DNA of 64,000 nt, taken from assembly GCA_017434555.1 (NCBI GenBank), contig JAFRFB010000055.1, positions 1 through 64,000 of the forward strand, read 5' to 3'. The translations under genes and the position numbers were made by a program. This document shows, piece after piece, positions 1 to 15,197 of the stretch. This DNA is from Methanobrevibacter sp. (GTDB lineage: Archaea; Methanobacteriota; Methanobacteria; Methanobacteriales; Methanobacteriaceae). The stretch's first letter is position 1. Every line of letters begins with the position of its first letter. Under the pieces are notes generated by a model. The model was not told the origin of the DNA. It did not search any database and saw only the letters and a program-made list of their open reading frames with translations.

Positions 1-1725
1 ACTGGTGATGTTATTATTTTAAACACTACTGCTTATAGTGCTGGTGGTGCTACTAACAGAGCTGACGAATTTGAAGTTGATTTAGCTAATGGAACTGTTA
101 ACACTGCTTTATTATATGTTTCATATAATTGGGATAAAGCTATTGACGGTGACTTCAACTCATGGAACACTACATTCAATGGTGAAGCAATCACTCCTTT
201 ATCTTATTACCGTGACCAATCCAATTTAGGAACTACTTATGCTAAGTACGGATACGGTTTAGTTGTTTATGATGTAACCGATTTGGTTGTTGATGGTACA
301 AATACCTTTGAATTAAATAAAACTTCAGGAAATGCTGCTGTTTATCCAAGTAACTTAATTGTTTTAACTGATAAAGAGAATTCAACAGCTTTCAAAACTG
401 TTTATCTTTATGAAGAAGCTGATTTATTATCCAAATCTTACAATAAGAATTTGGATGCTGGTTTCTTCACTGAATTTGGTATAGAAGAAGGTAATGCTAC
501 ATTATATGTATTTGCTGCTAGTGCTCAAGCTGGTGAAGGTAACATAATTGTCAATGATGAAAATTATACTGATGTTTGGAGCGGAACAAGTAATTCACTT
601 GAAACCTTTAGTGCTCCTATCAACGGAACTGATGTTTCTGTTTACTTTGAAGCAACCGGCGCTACCATTTTAGCTTTACACCAAATGATTGTCGTTGAAC
701 ATGGTGATATTTTGGTGGTTGAGGTTTATGATGTTGAAAAATATTATATGGGATCTGAAAGATTTTATGTAAGCGTTACAAACTTCCTAGGTACTCCTGT
801 AGTTAATCAATCCGTAGACATTACTATCAATGGTGTAACTTACACCAGAAGTACTAATGAAAATGGTACAACAAGCATTCCTCTTGGTCTTAACAGTGGA
901 GAATACGATGTAATTACTGTTGTTGGGAATAAGACATTTGTTAGTTTTGTAACTATATTGCCAACTGTAAACGGTGAAGATCTCGTAAAAACGTTCAGAA
1001 ACGCAACCCAGTACTCTGCAACATTTATCGACTCAGAAGGTGAATTATTACCTGAAGGTACTGAAGTAACATTCAATATTAATGGTGTAATGTACAACCG
1101 TAAGACCAATGAAAACGGTACTGCCAAATTAAATATTAACTTAGAACCAGGAAGCTACATAATTACCGCAACTAACCCTGTAACCGGTGAAATGTATTCT
1201 AATAATATTACAGTCTTACCTGTTATTGAAAGTAATGACTTAACAAAATATTATAGAAATGATTCCCAATATGTCGTTACTCTTTTAGGTGATGATGGTA
1301 AACCTGTTGGTGCTGGTGAAAAAGTTACATTTAACATTAACGGTGTATTCTACACACGTACAACTAATGAATCAGGCCAAGCTCAACTAAACATTAACTT
1401 AGAAGCAGGAACATACATAATCACAGCAATGTACAAAAATTGCAGTGTAGCAAATACTATTACTGTATTGCCAATATTGTCTGCAAATGATTTGAATAAG
1501 ACATATGGCGAACCTGATCAATTCGTAGCAACACTTGTTGACGGTCAAGGAAACCCTTATGCAAATCAGAAAGTAGAATTCAACGTTAATGGTGTCTTAT
1601 ATTACCGTACAACCGGTAGTGATGGTCAAGCTAAGTTAAACATTAACTTACAGCCTGGTGAATACATCATAACTTCTAGTTTTGAAGGATGTAACATTGC
1701 AAACAAAATTACTGTAAAAGGATGA
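1..1725 (+). CDS. DUF3344 adhesin-like surface protein, C-terminal part (5' end outside window)
   Basis: The reading frame is open from the first base and lacks a start, so the gene begins upstream. The visible part is the second half of a DUF3344 module (TGDVIILNT, then YNWDKAIDGDFNSWNTTF) followed by four Ig-like repeats of about 80-85 residues, starting near nt 730, 970, 1231 and 1480. Each repeat carries F(N)INGV-Y-RTTN and KLNINL-PGEYIIT signatures. It is a close paralogue of the next gene, which shows what the missing N-terminus should look like. Such proteins are exported and sit on the pseudomurein wall. Ligand binding is not known. Its position ahead of the CobN/ExbB genes suggests a surface receptor or capture role, which is inference. 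Confidence 0.85.
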   Translation, partial: TGDVIILNTTAYSAGGATNRADEFEVDLANGTVNTALLYVSYNWDKAIDGDFNSWNTTFNGEAITPLSYYRDQSNLGTTYAKYGYGLVVYDVTDLVVDGTNTFELNKTSGNAAVYPSNLIVLTDKENSTAFKTVYLYEEADLLSKSYNKNLDAGFFTEFGIEEGNATLYVFAASAQAGEGNIIVNDENYTDVWSGTSNSLETFSAPINGTDVSVYFEATGATILALHQMIVVEHGDILVVEVYDVEKYYMGSERFYVSVTNFLGTPVVNQSVDITINGVTYTRSTNENGTTSIPLGLNSGEYDVITVVGNKTFVSFVTILPTVNGEDLVKTFRNATQYSATFIDSEGELLPEGTEVTFNINGVMYNRKTNENGTAKLNINLEPGSYIITATNPVTGEMYSNNITVLPVIESNDLTKYYRNDSQYVVTLLGDDGKPVGAGEKVTFNINGVFYTRTTNESGQAQLNINLEAGTYIITAMYKNCSVANTITVLPILSANDLNKTYGEPDQFVATLVDGQGNPYANQKVEFNVNGVLYYRTTGSDGQAKLNINLQPGEYIITSSFEGCNIANKITVKG

Positions 1726-1750
1726 TTTTTTCATCCATTTTTCTTTTTTT
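1720..1750 (+). terminator. Hairpin plus U-run terminator containing the stop codon
   Basis: GGATGA (1720-1725) pairs with TCATCC (1731-1736) across a T5 loop, followed by a T-rich run. The TGA stop codon lies inside the 5' stem. The downstream paralogue ends in the same structure. Confidence 0.6.
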
Positions 1751-1791
1751 TAGTAATACTTTTTTTAGGTTTTTTGCCATTTTAGTAATAC
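1751..1791 (+). promoter_or_regulatory. Paired TAGTAATAC boxes upstream of the second adhesin
   Basis: Two identical 9-mers TAGTAATAC lie at 1751-1759 and 1783-1791, with starts 32 bp apart (about three helical turns). The second copy directly precedes an ATTAATTATATT stretch that contains the likely TATA element of the 1858 gene. The same pair, spacing and flank occur upstream of the CobN-like gene. A dimer-of-dimers repressor or activator site is inferred; the regulator is not identified. Confidence 0.6.
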
Positions 1792-1857
1792 ATTAATTAT
1801 ATTTATATATTATTTTTTTGAAAAATTTCTATTGTAAAATAATTGGGGGTTTTACAA

Positions 1858-4800
1858 ATGAATTTTAAATTTTTTATGTCATGTTTTTTTATTTTATTTT
1901 TAATCATGATAACTTCAGGTACTGTTTCTGCTGATGAAGCACCGGCTATGAGTTTAGTTGATTATGGAACGGTATCCGGAGACGTAGTTATTTATTCTTC
2001 AAATCCGTTTACAGAAACTGGAAGTTTGGAATATGCTATTCCCGAGGATGTTAGCCAGATTCAATCAGTTGATGTAATTGTCAGTTCTTATTCAGGTAGC
2101 GGTGCTCCTACTTATGCGTTATATTCTAACATTACATTGGATACGATTAATGGATTGGAAATATTAGGTTATGAGGATTTATATTGTGATAGAAGTATGA
2201 CCAATGATCCTACTGTTTATGTAATCAATAATCATACTACAAAACAGTTCTCTGACTATCAATCCACTTTTGATATTACGGATAAAGTGAAAAATCTGTC
2301 TTCTGGAGATACTATAAAGATATCTGTTAAAAATACACAAAAAGAAGGTTATAATTTCGATGGTAGAATTAAATTAATAGCTTTAGTATTCGCATATGAT
2401 GATGGAGATAATGATAAGATTACCTATTGGCTGAATGTCGGACAGTCCTGGACACAATCTTCTCGTTCTAACTTAATCAGTACAAAGAATTTCAAAGAAG
2501 AATATGATGAAGTAACATTTGAGAATATTGCTTTGTCTTCCTATAATGCAGTAGGTAGAATTAATAATGAATTGTTATATGATCCAATTGTTGAAAAGCA
2601 AGGAAGTTATTTCATATACGATAAATGGGATATTACTGATAGTTTTGAAATAGGTATCGACACGAATTACTCATATAAACCATCATCAAGCGGTTATGGC
2701 TCTTTCAAATCTGTCGTTCAACTATTAAAAGTAGATAAATCATATAATGAAATAATATCCACCATAACTCCGGAATATAAAAATACAATATATGCTGGTG
2801 TTTCAAATAATTTAACCATGGAAATTTTATCCAAAAAGGACATTAATGCAGTTGTAAAATTATATAACAATGAAAATCTTGTCTTTTCAGAAAATGTTAT
2901 TTTAACCGGTGGAAGCAGTGAAAAACTATATTTCGTTGACTTTACAATCAGGCCAGTAACTTCCAACACTGTCTATGGAGAAAACAACAAATATGAAAAT
3001 TATTCTCTTGTTATAGAAGATTTGGAGGGTAATGTTTTAAATTCAACCAACGTTTCATATGTCGTTTTGTATAATGGTAATTTGGGTAAGGATTATGAGT
3101 ATCCTACCGCTAACCCGACTTTAAGGGAATTTAATATTACTGGTGATGTAATTGTTTTAAATACAAGTGAATATAGTGGTAGCGGGGTTACTACAAGAAA
3201 CGATATCTTTAATGTTGATTTGAATGATGGTGATGTTAGTAAAGCATTATTATATGTTCCTTATACCTGGGATAAGGTTGTAAGCGGTGACTTCAACACC
3301 TGGAACACAACATTCAATAATCAGACAATTGTTCCTATCGCATCCTATCGTGACCAATCTAACTTGGGCACTTATGCAAAGTATGCTTATGGTTTAATAG
3401 TTTATGATGTAACTGGATTGCTTTTAAATGGAGCAAATACCTTTGAATTAAATAAAATTGCTGATAATACTGCTGTATATCCAAGCAACTTAATAGTATT
3501 AACAGATAATGAAGAAAGTGTCATCAATAAAACGGTTTATATCTTGGAAGAAGCGGATTTATTGTCAAAAACCAATAATAAGAATTTGCCTGCAGGATTT
3601 AACACTACTTTTAAAATAGTGGACGGCAATGCAACATTATATGTATTTGCTGCAGGTGCCCAAAAGGGTGAAGGAAACTTAATTATCAACGATAAAAGTT
3701 ACAGTGATGTTTGGAGTGGAACCAGCCAGTCATTTGACACATTTACTGCAAGCATTGATTCTGAAAATATTAATGTTTACTTTGAATCAACAGGCTCTAC
3801 AATTTTAGGCCTTCACCAAATGATTGTTGTTGAACATAGCGATTATTTAATAATCAATGCTCCGGATGTTGAAAAATATTATAAAGGACCTGAAAGATTT
3901 GTTGTAACAGTCACTGATTACCAGCAAAATCCAATGGCCAATAAATCTGTAGATATCACAATTAATGGCGTTACATATGCTAAAACAACCAATAATGAGG
4001 GTATTACAAGCATTGCTCTTGGAATTGACAGTGGAATATATAATGTAACAACCACAGTTGATAATACCACAGTTAACTCAGTTGTAACAGTTTTACCGAC
4101 TGTAAATGGAAGCGATGTTGTTAAGGTATTTAGAAACGGAACCCAGTATTATGCAACATTTAAAAATTCGGATGGTAGTTATTTGGATGATGGAAGTGGA
4201 GTCCAATTTAACATTAACGGTGTATTGTATGACCGCAAGGTATCCGGCAATAAAGGTCTTGCAAAATTAAACATCAACCTTCAACAGGGCGAATATATAA
4301 TTACTGCAACAAACCTCAAAACCGGTGAAAGATCTTCCAACATCATTACAGTTATTCCTAGAATTATTGAAAACAATGATTTAACCAAATATTACAGAAA
4401 TGCTTCACAATACACTGTAAAATTAATTGGTGATGACGGTAATGCTGTCGGTGCCGGCGTTGATGTAACCTTTAACATTAATGGTGTATTCTACACACGT
4501 ACAACAAACGCATCAGGAATAGCTAAATTAAACATTAACCTGGGACCTGGACACTACATTATCACAGCTGCATATGCGGACTGTATGGTATCAAATAACA
4601 TTGAAGTATTGCCGGTATTATCTGCAAATGACTTAACCAAGAAATTCGGTACTTCTGATCAATTTGTCGCAACTCTCGTTGACGGTCAAGGTAAAGCTTA
4701 TGCAGACCAGAAAGTAGAGTTCAACATTCATGGTGTATTCTATACCCGTACAACTAATAGTGATGGTCAGGCTAAGTTAAATATTAACTTACAACCTGGT

Positions 4801-4866
4801 GAATACATTATAACCTCTTCTTATAATGGAAGCAATATAGCAAATACAATTAAAGTTACTGGATGA
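1858..4866 (+). CDS. DUF3344 adhesin-like surface protein with four Ig-like repeats
   Basis: 1002 residues from ATG 1858, which follows GGGGGT. An in-frame TTG at 1843 is possible but would place the SD inside the gene. Residues 1-26 are a signal peptide (hydrophobic core, cleavage after VSA). Two DUF3344-type beta modules follow (about 30-400 and 425-665), then four Ig-like repeats near 670, 751, 838 and 922. There is no C-terminal membrane segment or LPxTG motif, so wall attachment must be non-covalent or through the repeats. It is paralogous to the preceding partial gene over the shared length. It lies 150 bp upstream of the CobN-like gene and shares its promoter boxes, so a joint role in substrate capture is inferred. 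Confidence 0.88.
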   Translation: MNFKFFMSCFFILFLIMITSGTVSADEAPAMSLVDYGTVSGDVVIYSSNPFTETGSLEYAIPEDVSQIQSVDVIVSSYSGSGAPTYALYSNITLDTINGLEILGYEDLYCDRSMTNDPTVYVINNHTTKQFSDYQSTFDITDKVKNLSSGDTIKISVKNTQKEGYNFDGRIKLIALVFAYDDGDNDKITYWLNVGQSWTQSSRSNLISTKNFKEEYDEVTFENIALSSYNAVGRINNELLYDPIVEKQGSYFIYDKWDITDSFEIGIDTNYSYKPSSSGYGSFKSVVQLLKVDKSYNEIISTITPEYKNTIYAGVSNNLTMEILSKKDINAVVKLYNNENLVFSENVILTGGSSEKLYFVDFTIRPVTSNTVYGENNKYENYSLVIEDLEGNVLNSTNVSYVVLYNGNLGKDYEYPTANPTLREFNITGDVIVLNTSEYSGSGVTTRNDIFNVDLNDGDVSKALLYVPYTWDKVVSGDFNTWNTTFNNQTIVPIASYRDQSNLGTYAKYAYGLIVYDVTGLLLNGANTFELNKIADNTAVYPSNLIVLTDNEESVINKTVYILEEADLLSKTNNKNLPAGFNTTFKIVDGNATLYVFAAGAQKGEGNLIINDKSYSDVWSGTSQSFDTFTASIDSENINVYFESTGSTILGLHQMIVVEHSDYLIINAPDVEKYYKGPERFVVTVTDYQQNPMANKSVDITINGVTYAKTTNNEGITSIALGIDSGIYNVTTTVDNTTVNSVVTVLPTVNGSDVVKVFRNGTQYYATFKNSDGSYLDDGSGVQFNINGVLYDRKVSGNKGLAKLNINLQQGEYIITATNLKTGERSSNIITVIPRIIENNDLTKYYRNASQYTVKLIGDDGNAVGAGVDVTFNINGVFYTRTTNASGIAKLNINLGPGHYIITAAYADCMVSNNIEVLPVLSANDLTKKFGTSDQFVATLVDGQGKAYADQKVEFNIHGVFYTRTTNSDGQAKLNINLQPGEYIITSSYNGSNIANTIKVTG

Positions 4867-4890
4867 TTTTATCATCCACATTCTTTTTTT
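4861..4890 (+). terminator. Hairpin plus U-run terminator containing the stop codon
   Basis: GGATGAT (4861-4867) pairs with ATCATCC (4871-4877) over a TTT loop, then a T7 run. TGA 4864-4866 is the stop codon, so the stop is part of the stem, as in the upstream paralogue. Confidence 0.6.
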
Positions 4891-4930
4891 AGTAATACTT
4901 TTTACCCTATTTTTACTTAAATAGTAATAC
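4890..4930 (+). promoter_or_regulatory. Paired TAGTAATAC boxes upstream of the CobN-like gene
   Basis: TAGTAATAC at 4890-4898 and again at 4922-4930, starts 32 bp apart exactly as at 1751-1791. ATTAATTATATT follows the second box in both promoters. This implies that the adhesin and the chelatase share one regulator. Confidence 0.6.
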
Positions 4931-5015
4931 TTTGATTAATTATATTAATAATAATTGTTCAATATATTATTTGAAAGGGATATTTTTAAAAATTCTTTTC
5001 AAAGGAGGTTTTAAT

Positions 5016-8000
5016 ATAATTAAGAGTAAACAAAATACTTTTAATTTAAAGAATATAGCAGTTTTAGCTATCGTTTGTGTTTTATTTATGTGTAGTTTAA
5101 ATATTACATTTGCTATGGATAATAATACAAATGTCCAATTGGATGATTCTAATGTGTTAAATCAGGGATATGAAAAATCAATGCTCCTTATTAGTGATAA
5201 TAGTGGGACAAATATTCTTGATTCAGCAGCAAATGAAGTATTAAAAAATTATTCAAATGTGGATATCCAAGTTAGAAGTTCTGCTCAGATTTCTACAATG
5301 AATGAGGATGAATTATATCAATTGGTTAATAGAAGTGATATTGTCATTGCGAATTGGCTAACAACTGATGCGGATGCTGTATTTACAAATCTATTAATTA
5401 AATATCCTGATTTGTCCAATAAGGAAATGTTTTTAATATTGGAAACATCTTCTTCTTCACAACTTAAAACATTCAACTTAGTTAAAAATTCTACTATAAA
5501 CTATCATAAAATCTTCAATGGTGATGAATATACAGTTGACTTTTTAAATAGTTATTTCCAGACTACAAAAAGAGGTCAATCATATACTACAGTAAATGAT
5601 TATCTCACAAATGGAAAAGGTAATAAAGTTGATTCTAAATTTAACCAGGCAGTTTTATATAAAAACTGCAATGATAAAGAAAATCAAATTAATCAAATAT
5701 TATGGGCATTAAGTACCTGCGGTTTCAACTGCCAATACAATGCACCTGTTTTCTACCAGTCCTATCAATATGGATTGTATCGTGACAGGTACATGTCTTT
5801 GGAAGAATACATGAAACAGTATTTCGATTCTTCAAGAAATTACACTGTAGGTTTACTTGAAAGTACAATGTATGTGTCCAGTGCATCATTGGAACCTTAT
5901 TATTCATTAATTAAATCTTTGGAATCTAAAGGAGTTAATGTAATTCCTGTTGTTGCTGCAGGAGGTTCAGATGATCAGTATAAGGTAATGATTGAGTACT
6001 TTACTAATGCTCCAGATTATGAATCATTTTTAAAAGATTCTTCAAAATACCAAAGCAATGTCGATGCTATCATTTCAATGCCTGCATATGGTATTGGAGG
6101 AACATTATTTGACAGTGTAACAGAGTATTTTGAAACAGCAGGCGTACCTGTATTCAGAGCAGTACATTCAGATTACGTAAGTAATGAGGAATGGGAATTA
6201 AGTACTACAGGCCTTCCAGGAAACAGAAGTGACAAATGGTGGCATGTAGCTATTGGTGAAGCGCAAGGTATTATTGAAGCCACTTTTGTAGGTGGAGTTA
6301 CCAATAAGATATCAGAGACTACAGGTGCTAAATTAACCGGATACAAGTCTCATGAAACCAATATTGACTTATTTACCGACAGAATTATTTCATGGATTGA
6401 TTTAAGTTATACTGAAAATGAAGATAAAAAAATTTCATTGATTTATTATAACTATCCTCCTGGAAAACAAAACATTGGTTCAAGTTATCTTGACTCAATA
6501 ACCAGTATCTATAATCTTTTGTTAACTTTAAAATCAGAAGGTTATGATGTTGGTCAATTGCCGGATAATGTAAGTCAATTGGAAGACATGATTATCAAGT
6601 GCGGTATCAATGTAGCTACCTGGGCTCCGGGTGAATTGGAAAAACTGGCAAACAGATCCAATGTGGTTTTACTTCCTGTTAGCGAATACATGGAGTGGTT
6701 CGAAAGCTTAGAACCTATTTCCAAATTGCAGGTAGTTGATGGGCCTGTTGCATATATTGGCGAATTGTCAAGAAATGCAATAGCAATTAACTATACTTCT
6801 CCAATGGATGAAAGGTTATCCGACTGGTATGGTGAAATTGTAGCATTGTTGCCGGACAATTACACCTCTAGAGCTATCCCTATTTTGGACAATATTGTTT
6901 CAGCTCTTAAAAAATATTTAATCACAGGTCTCGAATCTGACTATGATATATTTTTAAAATACAAGCAGGAATGGTCTGATTTGGATGTGCCTGGTTTAAA
7001 TGGTTGGGGAGAAGCTCCAGGTAATATTATGACAGTCTGGAGAAATGGAACCCAATACTTTGTTATTCCGGGTTTAACCTTTGGTAATGTCTTTATTGCT
7101 CCTGAACCTCAAAGGGGATGGGAAGCAGATTCTGATGCGTTATATCACAGTACTGCCGTCAGCCCAACACACCAGTACTTGGCAGCATATTATTATTTCC
7201 AGGAATATTATTCCTCTGCCATGGTATTTGTTGGAAGACACGCAACCCACGAATGGTTACCTGGTAAGGAAGTCTTACTTTCTTCAACAGATTATGGTTC
7301 AATTGTAGTTGGTGACACTCCTCAAATTTATTTCTACATTTCAGACGGTTTAGGTGAAGGTATTCAGGCTAAAAGAAGAGGTTTTGCAGTAATGATTTCT
7401 CATTTGACTTCTCCTTTAGCTTATACTCAACTTTATGGAAATCTGACTGTGCTTGCTAACCTGATTAATGAATATGAAAATGCATTAAATCAAAGTTCAA
7501 AGGATGCACTTATATCTGAAATCAGATATATTGTGGATACCAACAACTATGTTCATTCTATGGGTATCAGCAATGAAACATTCAATAAGTTCACTGCTGA
7601 TGAGTTAATTTCCGCTGCCGACTCTTTCATTAAAACGGTACAAAATGAATTGTACACGTGGGGTCTGCATGCCCTCGGACAGAATTGGACAGATAAGGAT
7701 ATAGGACTTTCCGTATCTACGGCTTTATCACAGCAGTTCACATATAATGGAGTTACAACATCATTGTATGATGAAATAGCTAAGATAAAGTATTCCAAAA
7801 AATATGATGAACTCAATTCCCTTGAAAGGGACGTTGTGATGAATCTATCATCCAATGTTGTAATATCCTTAATCTATTATTCAAGTGAAGAGGTAGCTCA
7901 GGTAATTGGAGTAAACTCAACATCTTTGATTGCGGCATTTGATTATGCAAAATTATTCATTTCATTAATCCAGGCATCTGTTTTAAAAGAAATGGATTCA

Positions 8001-10031
8001 TTTATCGATGCATTGAATGGAAAATATATTGCTCCAGGCCCTGCCGGTGACGTATTGGATATAAATTCACTTCCAACCGGTGGCAATTTCTTCCACGACC
8101 AATCTCAGGAACTTCCAACTAAAGACGCATATGAATATGGAAGAATCCTTACTTTACTTGCTTTAGACGGTCTGACAGATGACACAGAAAAGCTAGTAAT
8201 GGGTATCTGGTGTGTTGAAACAGCAAGGGATGACGGTGCATTAATATCTGTTGTATTGTATTTGCTCGGAATGGAACCAGTTTATTCATCTTCACCAAGT
8301 GCAGGTGGATATGTCCAGGTAGGCAATGATGAAGACCATGATGATCATGAACATGATGAAGAGGTTAGTGTTGGTACTAAAACAAATCTCATGCCAAGTT
8401 ATATCAAATTAGATGATTTGGTCCGTCCCGACGGATGGGATAAAAAAAGAATTGACGTTACTGTCATAACCAGCGGTAACTTTAGGGATTTATATTCAAC
8501 ACAAGCTATTTTGATGGATAATGCATTCAGAGTAGCATTGGCCAGATCATATTTATTTATATTAAACAACAATGATTTAAAAGAAAATCCATGGTTTAAT
8601 GATATTAAAGAGGGTTTAGAACATGTTGTGGCCAGTGTAGATTATTATGGTGTTGGTAAAGAAACTTTCGAAGAGAATAATGTTGCAAAGCATTGGGTTA
8701 GTGATTTCATTTACTACAAGGAGTTAGGTTATAATACCACTTATGCAGCTGAATGTGCAATAACCCGTATCTTTGCACCGCCTAATGGTGATTATGGTGC
8801 AGGAATAGCTAAATCAGTATCTTTAAGTTGGACTTGGAATGACACTGACGAACTGTCCGATTTCTATTTGGGCAGAATGGGTAACATGTACTCCAAATAT
8901 TATTGGGGTGAAACCAATCCGTTAGTATTTGCAAGAGCTTTAAACAATACCAACGATTTGATTGTCAGCCGTAATACCAATGTTTATGGTGTTCTGGACA
9001 ATGATGATTTCTTTGATTACTGGGGTGGACTTTCAATGACAATGGCTTATGTAAATGGAAATACTCCAAAAATGAATGTATTAATGTATGGAAATAAAAA
9101 CACTCCATATACTACATCCATTGAACAGGCTATTGCAAAAGAAATCCTTACCCGTTATTCAAACCCTGAATGGATTAGCGGAATGATGCAGGAAGGTTAT
9201 AGTGGTGCTAGATATATTTCCAATAAGTTTTTAACAGATCTGCTTGGATGGTCTGTAACAAGACCTGAAGCGGTTTCAAATTATATGTGGGATGATGCAT
9301 ATAACGTTTACTTCAATGATAAGTATGGAGTTGGAGTGACTGACTGGTTAAAAACAGGAAATAATAACTATGCATTCATATCCTCTGCAGGTACATTACT
9401 GACTGCTGCCTATGAAGGATATTGGCAAACGGATTCTGCAACTTTATCCAATGTTGCTAATCAGTGGGCACAGGCTGTAATCACTAATGGTGTTGCTTGC
9501 TGTGACTGTAGCTGTGGTAATATAGCTATGATGCAATGGGCAGTTGATTTCATCAATCCAGATTTGCTTGCTAAGTTTGCAGATCAGGTTTTCCAGGCAA
9601 CGAATCATAATTTCTTTAATCCGGCTAATTTCCAAAATAATCCTAATGCAGATTCTGCAGACAGTGAAATGGATGAAAATGCAGGTTTAAACTCAACTGA
9701 TGCTGTTTTAACCAATTCCTCTTCTTCAACTTTACAGTCTGACAGCGCTACATCAGGTTCAAACAATGGAAATGCTGCAAGAGGTGTTGGTGAAACTTCA
9801 TCTGAGTCAGCTACCGCTTCCAGTTCATCTGAAATTAATGATTTGGATAATGCTGGAGATAGTGGTGCCGATTCATCATCAAGGAGTTATGAAGTTGAAA
9901 AATCTGTTTCAAGCAGCAGTACAACCACAGAAAAATCAATGTCTATACAGTTGATTATTTGTATAATCGTAATAGTAGGAATTTTTGCTATAGGTTACTT
10001 TAGAAATAAGAATAAAGAAGATGAATTTTAA
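5016..10031 (+). CDS. Secreted, membrane-anchored CobN/BchH-like chelatase (HmuS-type)
   Basis: About 1671 residues. The family covers cobaltochelatase CobN, Mg-chelatase H and HmuS proteins acting on tetrapyrroles. Unlike cytosolic CobN it has an N-terminal signal segment (about 10-34), a Ser/Thr-rich wall-spanning linker (about 1545-1640) and a C-terminal membrane helix (about 1643-1663) with a charged tail, so the catalytic body faces outward. A His/Asp insert (DHDDHEHDEE, about 1105-1115) and a Cys cluster (ACCDCSCGN, about 1494-1502) could bind metal or tetrapyrrole. The start is set by AAAGGAGG at 5001-5008: seven bases later comes ATA (5016). ATT 5019 is the next option, and a TTG at 4932 would bury the SD. 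DUF2162, ExbB-like and DUF2149 genes follow, the partners of hmuS in Bacteroidetes. The chelated metal and reaction direction are not readable from sequence. Confidence 0.82.
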   Translation: MIKSKQNTFNLKNIAVLAIVCVLFMCSLNITFAMDNNTNVQLDDSNVLNQGYEKSMLLISDNSGTNILDSAANEVLKNYSNVDIQVRSSAQISTMNEDELYQLVNRSDIVIANWLTTDADAVFTNLLIKYPDLSNKEMFLILETSSSSQLKTFNLVKNSTINYHKIFNGDEYTVDFLNSYFQTTKRGQSYTTVNDYLTNGKGNKVDSKFNQAVLYKNCNDKENQINQILWALSTCGFNCQYNAPVFYQSYQYGLYRDRYMSLEEYMKQYFDSSRNYTVGLLESTMYVSSASLEPYYSLIKSLESKGVNVIPVVAAGGSDDQYKVMIEYFTNAPDYESFLKDSSKYQSNVDAIISMPAYGIGGTLFDSVTEYFETAGVPVFRAVHSDYVSNEEWELSTTGLPGNRSDKWWHVAIGEAQGIIEATFVGGVTNKISETTGAKLTGYKSHETNIDLFTDRIISWIDLSYTENEDKKISLIYYNYPPGKQNIGSSYLDSITSIYNLLLTLKSEGYDVGQLPDNVSQLEDMIIKCGINVATWAPGELEKLANRSNVVLLPVSEYMEWFESLEPISKLQVVDGPVAYIGELSRNAIAINYTSPMDERLSDWYGEIVALLPDNYTSRAIPILDNIVSALKKYLITGLESDYDIFLKYKQEWSDLDVPGLNGWGEAPGNIMTVWRNGTQYFVIPGLTFGNVFIAPEPQRGWEADSDALYHSTAVSPTHQYLAAYYYFQEYYSSAMVFVGRHATHEWLPGKEVLLSSTDYGSIVVGDTPQIYFYISDGLGEGIQAKRRGFAVMISHLTSPLAYTQLYGNLTVLANLINEYENALNQSSKDALISEIRYIVDTNNYVHSMGISNETFNKFTADELISAADSFIKTVQNELYTWGLHALGQNWTDKDIGLSVSTALSQQFTYNGVTTSLYDEIAKIKYSKKYDELNSLERDVVMNLSSNVVISLIYYSSEEVAQVIGVNSTSLIAAFDYAKLFISLIQASVLKEMDSFIDALNGKYIAPGPAGDVLDINSLPTGGNFFHDQSQELPTKDAYEYGRILTLLALDGLTDDTEKLVMGIWCVETARDDGALISVVLYLLGMEPVYSSSPSAGGYVQVGNDEDHDDHEHDEEVSVGTKTNLMPSYIKLDDLVRPDGWDKKRIDVTVITSGNFRDLYSTQAILMDNAFRVALARSYLFILNNNDLKENPWFNDIKEGLEHVVASVDYYGVGKETFEENNVAKHWVSDFIYYKELGYNTTYAAECAITRIFAPPNGDYGAGIAKSVSLSWTWNDTDELSDFYLGRMGNMYSKYYWGETNPLVFARALNNTNDLIVSRNTNVYGVLDNDDFFDYWGGLSMTMAYVNGNTPKMNVLMYGNKNTPYTTSIEQAIAKEILTRYSNPEWISGMMQEGYSGARYISNKFLTDLLGWSVTRPEAVSNYMWDDAYNVYFNDKYGVGVTDWLKTGNNNYAFISSAGTLLTAAYEGYWQTDSATLSNVANQWAQAVITNGVACCDCSCGNIAMMQWAVDFINPDLLAKFADQVFQATNHNFFNPANFQNNPNADSADSEMDENAGLNSTDAVLTNSSSSTLQSDSATSGSNNGNAARGVGETSSESATASSSSEINDLDNAGDSGADSSSRSYEVEKSVSSSSTTTEKSMSIQLIICIIVIVGIFAIGYFRNKNKEDEF

Positions 10032-10036
10032 TTTTT

Positions 10037-10071
10037 GAATAACTTTTATAAGTTATTCATTTATTTTTTTT
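10037..10071 (+). terminator. Terminator after CobN-like gene
   Basis: GAATAACTT (10037-10045) pairs with AAGTTATTC (10050-10058), followed by a T-rich stretch. It separates the chelatase gene from the DUF2162 operon, which has its own TATA-like sequence around 10085-10110. Confidence 0.6.
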
Positions 10072-10155
10072 AGTCAATGTGAATTAATTTATATATTTAA
10101 AAGAATATAATATAAAATGTAATTGATTTTAAATTAATTATGGAGAGATTTTATT

Positions 10156-10866
10156 ATGGATATGATGAGTGTTTTATGGCAATTCGGTATTCTTGCGGCT
10201 ATACTTGTTTTTGGAATAAAAGTAGGTTTAGCATCAGGTTTGGCTAATTTGTCCAAAAAATTATTGGCATTTATCTGTATTGGATATGGTGGTGGAGTTT
10301 TATTGATTTCTGCTGTCGCATCTTTATATGCAGAGCAACTCACTCAAGCCATTTACAGTTACAATTCAATATTCTACATAATCATGGCTTTAATAATGAT
10401 TATAGCTGGTTTAATTACAATTAGGGAATATAAAGTACATGATCACAATACAAGTACCGCAACATCTCTGGCGGTCATTGCTCCATGTCCGTGCTGTTTC
10501 GGTTCAATTGTTGCAAGTATTTTAATTGTTGCTCCAACCATTGGAGTAGGTGCTTTTTATTTAAGCTGGTTTGCAGCGGCTGCATTGGTAGCGGTAATTA
10601 TCATCACATATTTCGCATCCAATATTGTAGTTAAATACACAAGTAAGCCTTATCCTATCATTTTAGGAAACTTCATGTTACTTTTAGGTGCTTACTTTTT
10701 GCTTTCAGCAATTGTAATCCCAAATATCGCAGGTTCTTTAAGTAAAGATTTCAGTAGTCTTACAATGAGTTCTCCTGAATCAGTTATTGCAATTGTTGTG
10801 ATGTTAATTGTTTTGGTAGCTCTTGGAATATTTTTAAATAAGAAAAGTAAAAGTCTATTAGATTAA
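10156..10866 (+). CDS. DUF2162 family putative transporter (HmuT-like position)
   Basis: 236 residues with about six or seven membrane helices and a short charged C-terminus. The family is annotated as predicted transporters (DUF2162). A central APCPCCFGS motif (around residues 112-120) puts three cysteines at the mouth of a membrane helix, a possible metal or haem contact. It is the first gene of a three-gene operon: the ExbB-like gene starts 15 bp downstream, with DUF2149 after it. The start is ATG 10156 behind GGAGAGAT. The same partners occur with CobN-like proteins in bacterial haem/cobamide loci, so membrane passage of a metal or tetrapyrrole product is the likely job (inference). Confidence 0.8.
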   Translation: MDMMSVLWQFGILAAILVFGIKVGLASGLANLSKKLLAFICIGYGGGVLLISAVASLYAEQLTQAIYSYNSIFYIIMALIMIIAGLITIREYKVHDHNTSTATSLAVIAPCPCCFGSIVASILIVAPTIGVGAFYLSWFAAAALVAVIIITYFASNIVVKYTSKPYPIILGNFMLLLGAYFLLSAIVIPNIAGSLSKDFSSLTMSSPESVIAIVVMLIVLVALGIFLNKKSKSLLD

Positions 10867-10881
10867 TAAAGGTGATATATA

Positions 10882-11529
10882 ATGAGTGTAAGTATACCTG
10901 GTGGAGAATATTTAACAGGTTCTTTAGATGTTATTTCACAAAGTTTAACCATTCCTGTATTGGTTATTCTTTTAATCATTGTTATAATTTCCATTGTAAC
11001 ATTGGGTGGATTAATATCTGAATATACTTCAAGAAAAAAAGTTCCGGTTGGAACAGTCAGAGATTTGATTTATGATATTAATTCAGCTGCTTCCGTTGAT
11101 GCTTTAAAAGGTATCATTGAAGGTGCGGCTATTCCTAAGTCTCAGAAAAAAGTATTAAGTGAAATCGCTAGTTCTTCCAGTTTAGACGAAAATACTAGAG
11201 AAGCTTTAGCTCGTAAACTCGTAGAACATGAAGAAGAAAAAATTGATAAGTCATTACAGAAAACTGATATTATTACACGTATCGGTCCTACATTAGGGTT
11301 AATGGGTACTTTAATTCCTATGGGTCCGGGTCTTGCAGCTTTAGGTGCAGGTGACGTTAATACTCTTGCAGAATCATTAACAGTTGCATTTAACACAACA
11401 ATTGTCGGTATCGGTTCAGGTGCTTTATGTTATGTTATAGGTAAAATCAGATCCGGTTGGTATGACCGTTATTTATCAGATTTGGATGCTTTATCAGATG
11501 CAGTTTTAGATTATATGAATAATCAGTGA
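10882..11529 (+). CDS. MotA/TolQ/ExbB-family proton channel protein
   Basis: 215 residues. A first membrane helix lies at about 22-46, a cytoplasmic helical region at about 50-130, and the signature RIGPTLGLMGTLIPMGPG near 132-150 leads into a second helix. A third helix follows at about 165-190 with the conserved AFNTTIVGIGSG segment. In ExbB/TolQ these helices form a pentameric channel that uses the ion gradient to drive ExbD-like partners. The ATG follows AAAGGTGATATATA. The DUF2149 gene begins 5 bp after the stop. There is no flagellar or TonB context here, so the motor most likely powers the outward-facing CobN-like chelatase or its substrate transfer. Confidence 0.9.
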   Translation: MSVSIPGGEYLTGSLDVISQSLTIPVLVILLIIVIISIVTLGGLISEYTSRKKVPVGTVRDLIYDINSAASVDALKGIIEGAAIPKSQKKVLSEIASSSSLDENTREALARKLVEHEEEKIDKSLQKTDIITRIGPTLGLMGTLIPMGPGLAALGAGDVNTLAESLTVAFNTTIVGIGSGALCYVIGKIRSGWYDRYLSDLDALSDAVLDYMNNQ

Positions 11530-11534
11530 TTTAA

Positions 11535-11873
11535 ATGGTTCGTAAAAAACAGAGAAGACGATCAAATCGTGTTGAAGAAGACCCAATGGCGGGTACATCT
11601 AACCTTGTTGATGCTATGCTTGTTATTGCTGTAGGTTTTCTTGTTTTTGTAATCATTAGCTGGAATATGCAGGCTATTGTTTTCAATGATGACATGACTC
11701 CAGAACAAAAACAACAAGTTATGCAGACTATTAAGAGTGTTTCAGAGGTTAATCAAGGTCAGGAATTGAATGAAACTCCAGACACTTCAAATAGTTCCGG
11801 TCAAGGTTATACTGAAATGGGTAAAGTCTATAAGGACCCATCGACAGGTAAGCTGATTATGGTAGAGGGTTGA
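11535..11873 (+). CDS. DUF2149 protein, ExbD-like partner of the proton channel
   Basis: 112 residues: a basic cytoplasmic N-terminus, one membrane helix (about 24-46), an extracytoplasmic segment and the DUF2149-type ending GKVYKDPSTGKLIMVEG. The helix begins NLVDAMLVIAVGF, strongly resembling the ExbD/TolR helix with its essential membrane aspartate; here that residue is Asp26. The topology (N-in, single pass) is the same. I infer that it is the ExbD equivalent that couples proton flow through the adjacent ExbB-like channel to an extracytoplasmic load. It lacks the full ExbD periplasmic domain, so the coupling mode must differ. Confidence 0.85.
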   Translation: MVRKKQRRRSNRVEEDPMAGTSNLVDAMLVIAVGFLVFVIISWNMQAIVFNDDMTPEQKQQVMQTIKSVSEVNQGQELNETPDTSNSSGQGYTEMGKVYKDPSTGKLIMVEG

Positions 11874-11900
11874 GCCTCTACTTCAAACATTTTTTTAACT
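11862..11900 (+). terminator. Terminator of the DUF2162-ExbB-DUF2149 operon
   Basis: GTAGAGG (11862-11868) pairs with CCTCTAC (11875-11881). The TGA stop (11871-11873) lies in the loop. T-runs follow. Confidence 0.6.
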
Positions 11901-14249: not shown

Positions 14250-15197
14250 ATGTCTAAAATTAAACGGATGAACAATCCGGAAGATACATTCATGAAGCGG
14301 CAATTCACCTATTTGGGTGACATAGCTCATGAATTCTATAATCTTCCTGGAAAATACATTGGAAGTGAATGTAATGAATATCCGAATGTAGACGGTGGAA
14401 TACCAAGAGCAGATATAGTATATGAAGTTAGGATGAAAGACGGAAGTATATTCATGATTAACATAGAGGATGAAACAAGTTATGTAAACGTGAATACTCT
14501 AAAAAAGTCATACAACTATAAAATCAACATATACTATAAGACCAAAAATCCGGTAATTAGCGTTATCACAACAACGCTTCCGGAAGACAAATGCCTAAAT
14601 GAATTATGGATTTCACCAACAGACCTTTTCAAACCATTTGTTATTTCTCTGCATGACGAAAACGCTTGGAAAAAATTAAATACTTTAATTGATAAAGCTA
14701 AAAAGCAAGAAGAATTTAGTGATATAGAAGGATTGGAGCTAATAAATTTACCCCGCTTCTGTTCTGAAAACCACCAAAAAGCCATCGAAATGATTTGCAG
14801 TGTACTTTATGATTTGAAAATTGATGATGACTATGTGAAAAATGAATTAATATATTCTATGCAATGTATGATTCACAAATACGCAAAAACAGATGAAAAA
14901 ATAAAAGATTTGGAGGAGATGATTGGATTGAGACAGGTAATGAAAAAAAGAAGCCCCGTACTTGATGCAATGGAACGCCAAGGAGTTCTAAAAGGACGAA
15001 AACAAGGAATAAAAATGGGTGAAGAAAAAGGAATAAAAATGGGTGAAGAAAAAGGAATAGAAATAGGTGAAGAAAAAGGAATTTTGAAGGTTTTAAAGGA
15101 TTTGGCTAATGAGTCATCTAACGAAAAGACTGTTGAAGAGTTGGCTGAAAAATATGGATACACCGTAGATGAAATATTAAATGCAAATATTGATTAG
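14250..15197 (+). CDS. Rpn-like / PD-(D/E)XK nuclease-family protein
   Basis: 315 residues. The N-terminal half has the nuclease-like core: ADIVYEV (about residues 50-56) and the strand SIFMINIEDET (about 68-78), matching the D...(D/E)xK-type pattern of the recombination-promoting nuclease/putative transposase superfamily, although the lysine is replaced. A helical region follows, then a glycine-rich repeat tract (G-I-K-M-G-E-E-K units, about 250-280) typical of these proteins, and a final segment EELAEKYGYTVDEILN. No function is established for the archaeal members. Three relatives occur in this window, and a duplicated 3' end follows at 15300-15373. The ATG follows AGGGGGACTGAT. Confidence 0.65.
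   Translation: MSKIKRMNNPEDTFMKRQFTYLGDIAHEFYNLPGKYIGSECNEYPNVDGGIPRADIVYEVRMKDGSIFMINIEDETSYVNVNTLKKSYNYKINIYYKTKNPVISVITTTLPEDKCLNELWISPTDLFKPFVISLHDENAWKKLNTLIDKAKKQEEFSDIEGLELINLPRFCSENHQKAIEMICSVLYDLKIDDDYVKNELIYSMQCMIHKYAKTDEKIKDLEEMIGLRQVMKKRSPVLDAMERQGVLKGRKQGIKMGEEKGIKMGEEKGIEIGEEKGILKVLKDLANESSNEKTVEELAEKYGYTVDEILNANID

Follow-up and report, generated by a model that had tools for sequence, protein, structure and literature searches.

The window analysed here, a stretch of 64,000 nucleotides from a Methanobrevibacter sp. genome (contig JAFRFB010000055.1), opens with a plus-strand locus encoding two DUF3344 surface proteins (adhesins 1 and 2), a CobN-like protein (S), a DUF2162 protein (T), an ExbB-type protein (U) and a DUF2149 protein (V). 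Its genes probably make up a system by which a methanogen with a pseudomurein wall acquires nickel (or nickel and cobalt), an hmuSTUV variant that does without an outer membrane. A preliminary description of the stretch had reported the same gene set and order, which Pfam confirmed, and had read them as an archaeal hmu-like system for a tetrapyrrole such as haem, or for a metal. Two studies of 2025 touch on such proteins: in one, devoted to HmuS, the function of archaeal CobN/HmuS homologues is called unclear (PMC12583661); in the other, a proteome of nickel-starved methanogens, CobN is induced and no explanation is given (PMC12350162). The present analysis joins both. It places a putative extracytoplasmic chelatase, together with surface receptors, a transporter and a proton motor, under an operator of the nickel/cobalt type, and it could account for a set of archaeal 'CobN' proteins that has been puzzling.

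A paired operator common to the locus and nickel/cobalt importers

The operator, first noticed as sequence repeats ahead of adhesin 2 and of S, is composed of two copies of a 9-bp palindrome placed 32 bp apart (AGTAWTACT-N23-AGTAWTACT), and it precedes adhesin 1, adhesin 2 and S. The exact double box has two sites in the 3.15-Mb genome (99% complete), both in the present locus, and the reversed pattern, used as a control, has 0; when up to 2 mismatches are allowed, 121 sites are found in 13 genomes, versus 16 in the reversed control. We inspected the nearest genes in 29 operator regions, mainly around the best-listed sites. A NikA-like (SBP_bac_5) or nik-type ATPase gene was nearest in 10 of them and CbiM, CbiQ or CbiO in 8; the others had DUF3344 (2), the nikR operon (1), the FmdE exoprotein of a T-U-V cassette (1), a P-type ATPase (1) and other genes (6). 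In two genomes (G032 and G037) boxes lie some 640 bp ahead of nikR, and a NikR gene is present in all 18 genomes tested. Judged from its sequence, the operator is common to the locus and to known nickel/cobalt importers of the family, and the regulator acting on it is most likely NikR.

The distribution of boxes differs between gene types. Pairs lie upstream of 5 of 8 DUF3344 genes and 5 of 8 FmdE genes, with a background of 0.7% for pairs, and upstream of 2 of 15 CobN genes linked to T-U-V, five more of which have single boxes; neither pairs nor single boxes were found upstream of the 8 NosD/Fec-type genes or of the 4 unlinked CobN genes.

Within the 13 genomes (loci L185-L213), the paired operator also stands ahead of genes for two proteins with His-rich tails, a P-type ATPase and an EamA transporter, and ahead of genes for a GNAT acetyltransferase, a 4Fe-4S protein and an unknown protein of 179 residues, all of them candidates for new members of a nickel/cobalt regulon.

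DUF3344 surface proteins are linked to the chelatase

DUF3344 is restricted, within the window's genome, to the present locus and its continuation on another contig (C58). Among the resolvable DUF3344 loci of nine other genomes, 9 of 11 lie within 8 kb of a CobN gene, where 0.47 would be expected (P about 8e-13, with related genomes treated as independent and no correction for relatedness), and in 3 genomes of 2 families DUF3344 is fused to the CobN polypeptide (DUF3344-CARDB-CobN). No DUF3344 was found at T-U-V loci of the FmdE, NosD or ABC transporter type. Because of this linkage and these fusions the adhesins belong to the system, as had been proposed beforehand, and on such comparative grounds the adhesins, S, T, U and V form a real unit.

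A structure model of DUF3344 is all-beta (predicted local distance difference test, pLDDT, 70; predicted template modelling score, pTM, 0.74). No listed structure in the PDB matches it with a template modelling score above 0.33 and no PDB sequence matches it either; as a consequence the model yields no hint of the ligand, and DUF3344 as a NEAT-like haem domain was rejected. With archaeal queries, neither DUF3344 nor DUF2162 was found on sequenced plasmids. The order PaaK - T-U-V - TFIIS-like is kept in the genus (L057, L066, L090 and L094 compared with the window and L205), and adhesins plus CobN are present between PaaK and T in some species only, which points to gain or loss at one site.

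The CobN-like protein S

A hydrophobic segment lies near the N-terminus of S, at about residue 42, and a linker rich in Ser (28 of the 108 residues in 1560-1668) precedes a C-terminal transmembrane anchor at about 1672-1690. S is therefore predicted to be exported and membrane-anchored, a topology that agrees with the earlier proposal of an outward-facing rather than cytosolic protein. It misses the curated cut-offs of the CobN equivalogs (TIGR02257, 419.6 against 822 bits; NF004645, 677.6 against 1619 bits) and its closest PDB match is HmuS (9d26, 1.4e-89). We used the HmuS numbering of B. thetaiotaomicron, checked on an open reading frame (ORF) of L100, where the THG histidine falls at 538 and HGR at 254. 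S keeps His at position 538 (VGRHATHEW), though the HFG(T/A)HG motif around it is altered, and also Glu at position 577. The site-1 haem ligands Met79 and His254-Gly-Arg are missing, Leu and Ala-Tyr-Gly being found instead; in place of LSLDHxxEFMGG, with His1209 and Glu1212, S has VLDNDDFFDYWGGL, with Asp at both positions, so that DNDD replaces the His1209 motif. Because Met79, His254-Gly-Arg and His1209 are absent, S is not a HmuS by the definition of the HmuS study (PMC12583661). Near its C-terminus S carries the conserved cysteines CCDCSC, of which the CCxxxC form is more widespread.

PF01078, used in a scan for a ChlI/ChlD partner ATPase, also matches unrelated ATPases, none of which adjoins S in the locus, and was dropped as too unspecific; the one CobN with a ChlI/ChlD-like gene beside it is the cytosolic protein of L071. 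A second exported, anchored CobN-like protein is encoded in the window's genome (G000:C111:162000-181000; L008, 8705-13426) and is followed by another adhesin; it comes without T-U-V, DUF3344 or operator and belongs to a different clade (TWRFIDSDD motif, CCHHTC). Tandem CobN pairs precede T-U-V in several genera (L054, L077, L079, L092), and about nine CobN homologues are found in G001, a genome of 1.24 Mb.

The T-U-V cassette in archaea and bacteria

DUF2149 is present in 121 of 132 genomes of the phylum. About 60 DUF2149 neighbourhoods were compared, the archaeal loci being from Methanobacteria. The T-U-V cassette recurs, and CobN lies directly before T on the same strand in 14 of them; the other occupants of this slot are an anchored FmdE-domain protein, a NosD-like protein or a FecBCD-type ABC transporter, and in three loci CbiM, a cobalt/nickel energy-coupling factor component, lies between the FmdE protein and T. 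In bacterial plasmid records CobN adjoins ExbB/DUF2149 in Prevotella, Aureibacter, Bacteroides, Trichlorobacter, Runella, Azospirillum, Comamonadaceae, Diaphorobacter and Pseudoalteromonas, and bacterial DUF2149 loci almost always include CobN. The association of the chelatase with DUF2162, ExbB and DUF2149, on which the preliminary description was built, is thus found in other genomes, archaeal and bacterial. The motif APCPCC occurs in every complete T directly after CobN and is absent from NosD/Fec-type and FmdE-linked T; T is predicted to be a metal permease, and the passage through DUF2162 suggested earlier is plausible. On a quick tree of U, with moderate support, partner types switch several times, CobN and FmdE being interleaved and NosD/Fec forming a group of its own.

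The window's genome holds a second T-U-V cassette (G000:C65; L009, 9433-12944, minus strand), in which a surface protein of the NosD-like beta-helix type stands where CobN would be. The cassette is followed by the formate transporter FdhC and formate dehydrogenase genes and lacks a nickel-type box; its relatives L060 and L068 have FecBCD and a cytosolic FmdE at that place, and the cassette perhaps serves another metal (Mo/W?). Anchored FmdE-domain exoproteins occupy the slot in L050 (U-V only), L059, L061, L067, L069, L095, L098 and L208, with CbiM beside several.

The metal: probably nickel or cobalt rather than haem

The genes around related loci point to nickel or cobalt. CbiM adjoins FmdE-T-U-V cassettes; in Runella the order is hypABF - TonB receptor - NicO/UreH-like permease - ExbB - DUF2149 - CobN - hypCDE, in a nickel hydrogenase operon; in Azospirillum CobN-ExbB-DUF2149 lies near nikR; and in Trichlorobacter DUF2162-ExbB-DUF2149-CobN lies among cobamide genes (cobT/bzaF/cobyric acid synthase). 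On a Methanoperedens plasmid DUF3344 is found beside NikR and CbiMNQO (PMC9674854). In the proteome of Methanothermobacter marburgensis, which belongs to the same order as the window's methanogen, CobN and NikR are high only under nickel limitation and a 'transporter', MTBMA_c10530, rises (PMC12350162). The number of this gene is close to those of MTBMA_c10550-10570, listed as CobN-like possible nickel chelatases (PMC3087415), and in G124, of the same order, split CobN pieces are followed by T-U-V (L088); by the locus numbering and the order in L088, MTBMA_c10530 would be the T protein. Because S lacks the HmuS ligands, T is not HmuT-like and both operators and gene contexts are of the nickel/cobalt type, the ligand reads as nickel/cobalt and not as haem, and the haem-type ligand of the preliminary description is not supported. 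Cobalt may be handled alongside nickel, in a mixed role.

Comparison with known systems

The HmuS/HmuTUV operon of Bacteroidota, which encodes a haem de-chelatase (PMC12583661), has the same architecture: an exported, anchored protein of the CobN/ChlH fold, then a polytopic membrane protein, an ExbB-type protein and DUF2149. U aligns with HmuU over 202 columns (hhalign P=100, E 5e-41), with a common LGLMGTLIPMGP signature, and V with HmuV over its full length (P=98, E 3.5e-14); by profile comparison the two are true relatives of HmuU and HmuV. HmuT has no detectable match to DUF2162 (P=5.6), and its identification with DUF2162 was rejected. The likeness to hmu claimed at the outset therefore stands for U and V and falls for T and for the haem ligands of S; hmu loci had also been said to hold DUF2162-type proteins, which the comparison with HmuT does not support, although DUF2162 does occur in the bacterial CobN locus of Trichlorobacter. 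Unlike hmu, the locus has DUF3344 surface proteins, no HmuY and no TonB-dependent HmuR was found in the ORFs of the locus or of either flank (the missing outer-membrane receptor had been noticed correctly), and the operator is of the nickel/cobalt type instead of an iron regulation. The hmu analogy is probably right in architecture and wrong in ligand.

Two bacterial loci offer further comparisons. The cobamide locus of Trichlorobacter lovleyi pSZ77 has the same four families, an exported CobN, the DNDD motif and CCxxxC near the C-terminus, but its CobN follows V, it has TonB receptors with a separate ExbB-ExbD-TonB, and DUF3344 is missing. The Runella slithyformis locus shares ExbB-DUF2149-exported CobN and an LDNDDFF motif, with a TonB receptor and, in the T slot, a nickel permease of the NicO/UreH type, which as a DUF2162 protein was rejected, no alignment being obtained. 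Cobaltochelatase CobNST and Mg-chelatase ChlHID have the same large-subunit fold, but they are cytosolic, ATPase-driven and metal-inserting, whereas S is predicted to be extracytoplasmic, beside a proton-motor pair and with no ATPase gene adjacent. With ExbB-ExbD-TonB the locus shares an ExbB-type membrane protein (U matches an ExbB at hhalign E 2.8e-05) and a small partner with one transmembrane segment and a membrane Asp; it lacks TonB and a receptor, and V has in common with ExbD only this motif (P=1.9), so that V as a proven ExbD was rejected.

Proposed mechanism

Metal-inserting class I chelatases are driven by an ATPase motor, ATP is absent outside the cell, and archaea such as these have no outer membrane. 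We propose that the DUF3344 surface proteins, found in some relatives as one polypeptide with the chelatase, would catch a metal carrier outside the cell; that the anchored S would remove the metal from its chelate, or hold it, and pass it to the permease T with its CPCC motif; that U-V would turn the proton gradient into mechanical work on S, replacing the ATPase ChlI/ChlD or CobS/CobT; and that a nickel-responsive regulator, most likely NikR, would turn the genes on at nickel shortage. The cysteines at the end of S and the APCPCC of T suggest a hand-over of the metal from one to the other. The ligand, the removal rather than insertion of the metal, T as permease, the action of U-V on S and NikR as regulator are all parts that we infer. 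If the scheme is true, organisms whose methane production needs nickel would have an added route of nickel acquisition, tasks could be proposed for DUF2149, DUF2162, DUF3344 and the anchored FmdE proteins, and a chelatase powered by HmuUV would be suggested.

The ExbB/DUF2149 pair of Bacteroidota has been assumed to serve the TonB receptor (PMC12583661). In the Trichlorobacter cluster (L157, NC_010815.1, 4844-16252) ExbB/DUF2149 lies beside CobN and DUF2162, and a separate, canonical ExbB-ExbD-TonB lies beside the TonB receptor. Because of this separate set, and because the archaea lack an outer membrane, the common partner of the motor would be an extracytoplasmic metal protein. A wider proposition, which we advance tentatively and hold to be rather doubtful as a whole, is that ExbB/DUF2149 is a dedicated proton motor for extracytoplasmic class I (de)chelatases, a counterpart of ChlI/ChlD and CobS/CobT that needs no ATP; that methanogens use it to strip nickel from extracellular chelates (e.g. 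F430 or other nickel tetrapyrroles) caught by DUF3344; and that HmuUV in Bacteroidota drives HmuS and not the TonB receptor.

Alternative explanations

Several points weigh against a nickel acquisition system driven in this way. Box pairs at CobN itself are limited to the two cases out of 15, in two species, both of the window's genus; NikR is a putative regulator, and the 32-bp spacing of the boxes is unlike the E. coli NikR site. Ordinary CobN also has Asp for His at HmuS position 1209, and the Azospirillum protein linked to nikR has His there, so that this residue is no clean indicator of the metal; a metal prediction from the His/Asp switch was rejected as unreliable. Many T-U-V cassettes come without CobN, the predicted structure of T (pLDDT 52) is too poor for use, and V shows no detectable ExbD homology beyond its transmembrane motif. 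MTBMA_c10530 is assigned by numbering, the nickel-induced CobN1 of M. marburgensis is putatively of the S type, and the ligand and activity of S are putative.

The best of the rival readings, possible though on balance unlikely, is that S only holds or inserts metal, as an outside nickel/cobalt binder with a chelatase fold, without de-chelation, and that U-V powers T or a movement of the surface proteins. T-U-V is in fact also found with FmdE-domain, NosD-like and other anchored proteins that have no chelatase, and partners switch on the U tree, which argues that the motor is not chelatase-specific; against this, S keeps the chelatase residues His538 and Glu577, almost all bacterial DUF2149 loci contain CobN, and APCPCC follows CobN linkage. 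A salvage of cobamide or cobalt, with DUF3344 and S as traps for corrinoids or cobalt complexes, with import of the metal or corrinoid and with no part for nickel, seems unlikely: it would suit the cobamide genes around the Trichlorobacter cassette, the DNDD motif common to S and the Trichlorobacter CobN, and CbiM, which carries cobalt or nickel, but nikR, the hyp operon, the NikA-like genes and the proteome under nickel limitation favour nickel. Less probable still is an archaeal hmu in which haem or another iron tetrapyrrole is captured and S removes the iron as HmuS does; the PDB match of S, the retained His538 and Glu577 and the homology of U and V speak for it, and the lost haem ligands (with Asp for His1209), the unrelated T, the nickel/cobalt operator and neighbours and the lack of HmuY or HmuR speak against it. 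That ordinary adhesins, of which Methanobrevibacter-like genomes have many, lie by chance beside a cluster of metal genes and share no function with it is hardly credible, being contradicted by the restriction of DUF3344 to this locus, its linkage and fusion to CobN and the common operator.

Layout of the locus and gene calls

The window begins at base 1 of its contig (C81, 82.6 kb), and the features of the locus are listed in Table 1. Adhesin 1 is truncated at the contig end; its 5' part (852 residues, with an operator pair of its own) is on C58, which overlaps the window start exactly over 135 bp.

Table 1. Coordinates of the locus in the window
Feature	Position	Strand	Description
Adhesin 1, 3' part	1..1725	+	DUF3344 domain at 1-699 (Pfam 2e-32), immunoglobulin-like repeats
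Operator pair	1752..1792	+	AGTAATACT ... AGTAATACA, 32 bp start to start; upstream of adhesin 2
Adhesin 2, 1007 residues	1843..4866	+	Signal peptide, DUF3344 x2 (1948-2733, 3118-3834; Pfam 2e-49), immunoglobulin-like repeats
Operator pair	4891..4931	+	AGTAATACT-N23-AGTAATACT, 0 mismatches; upstream of S
S, ORF of 1699 residues	4932..10031	+	Predicted exported CobN-like chelatase; Pfam CobN-Mg_chel 6e-215
T	10156..10866	+	DUF2162 polytopic membrane protein, APCPCC motif; Pfam 1e-67
U	10882..11529	+	ExbB/TolQ-type, LGLMGTLIPMGP subfamily common to HmuU; Pfam MotA_ExbB 2e-11
V	11535..11873	+	DUF2149, one transmembrane segment with invariant Asp (NLVDAMLV), small outer domain; Pfam 1e-22

For S, the TTG at 4932 is a start by mechanical ORF calling only. 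GGAGG at 5004-5008, which resembles a ribosome-binding site, precedes the signal peptide and is followed in frame by ATA ATT instead of ATG, GTG or TTG; the true start is probably near 5016-5021, without any of these three codons, and the region 5004-5021 may hold an unusual start codon or a sequence error. No Rfam riboswitch was found in the window. Farther along, in the ORF at 14250-15197, a 24-bp tandem repeat at 14990-15082 encodes KGI(K)MGEE units that recur close to the C-terminus.

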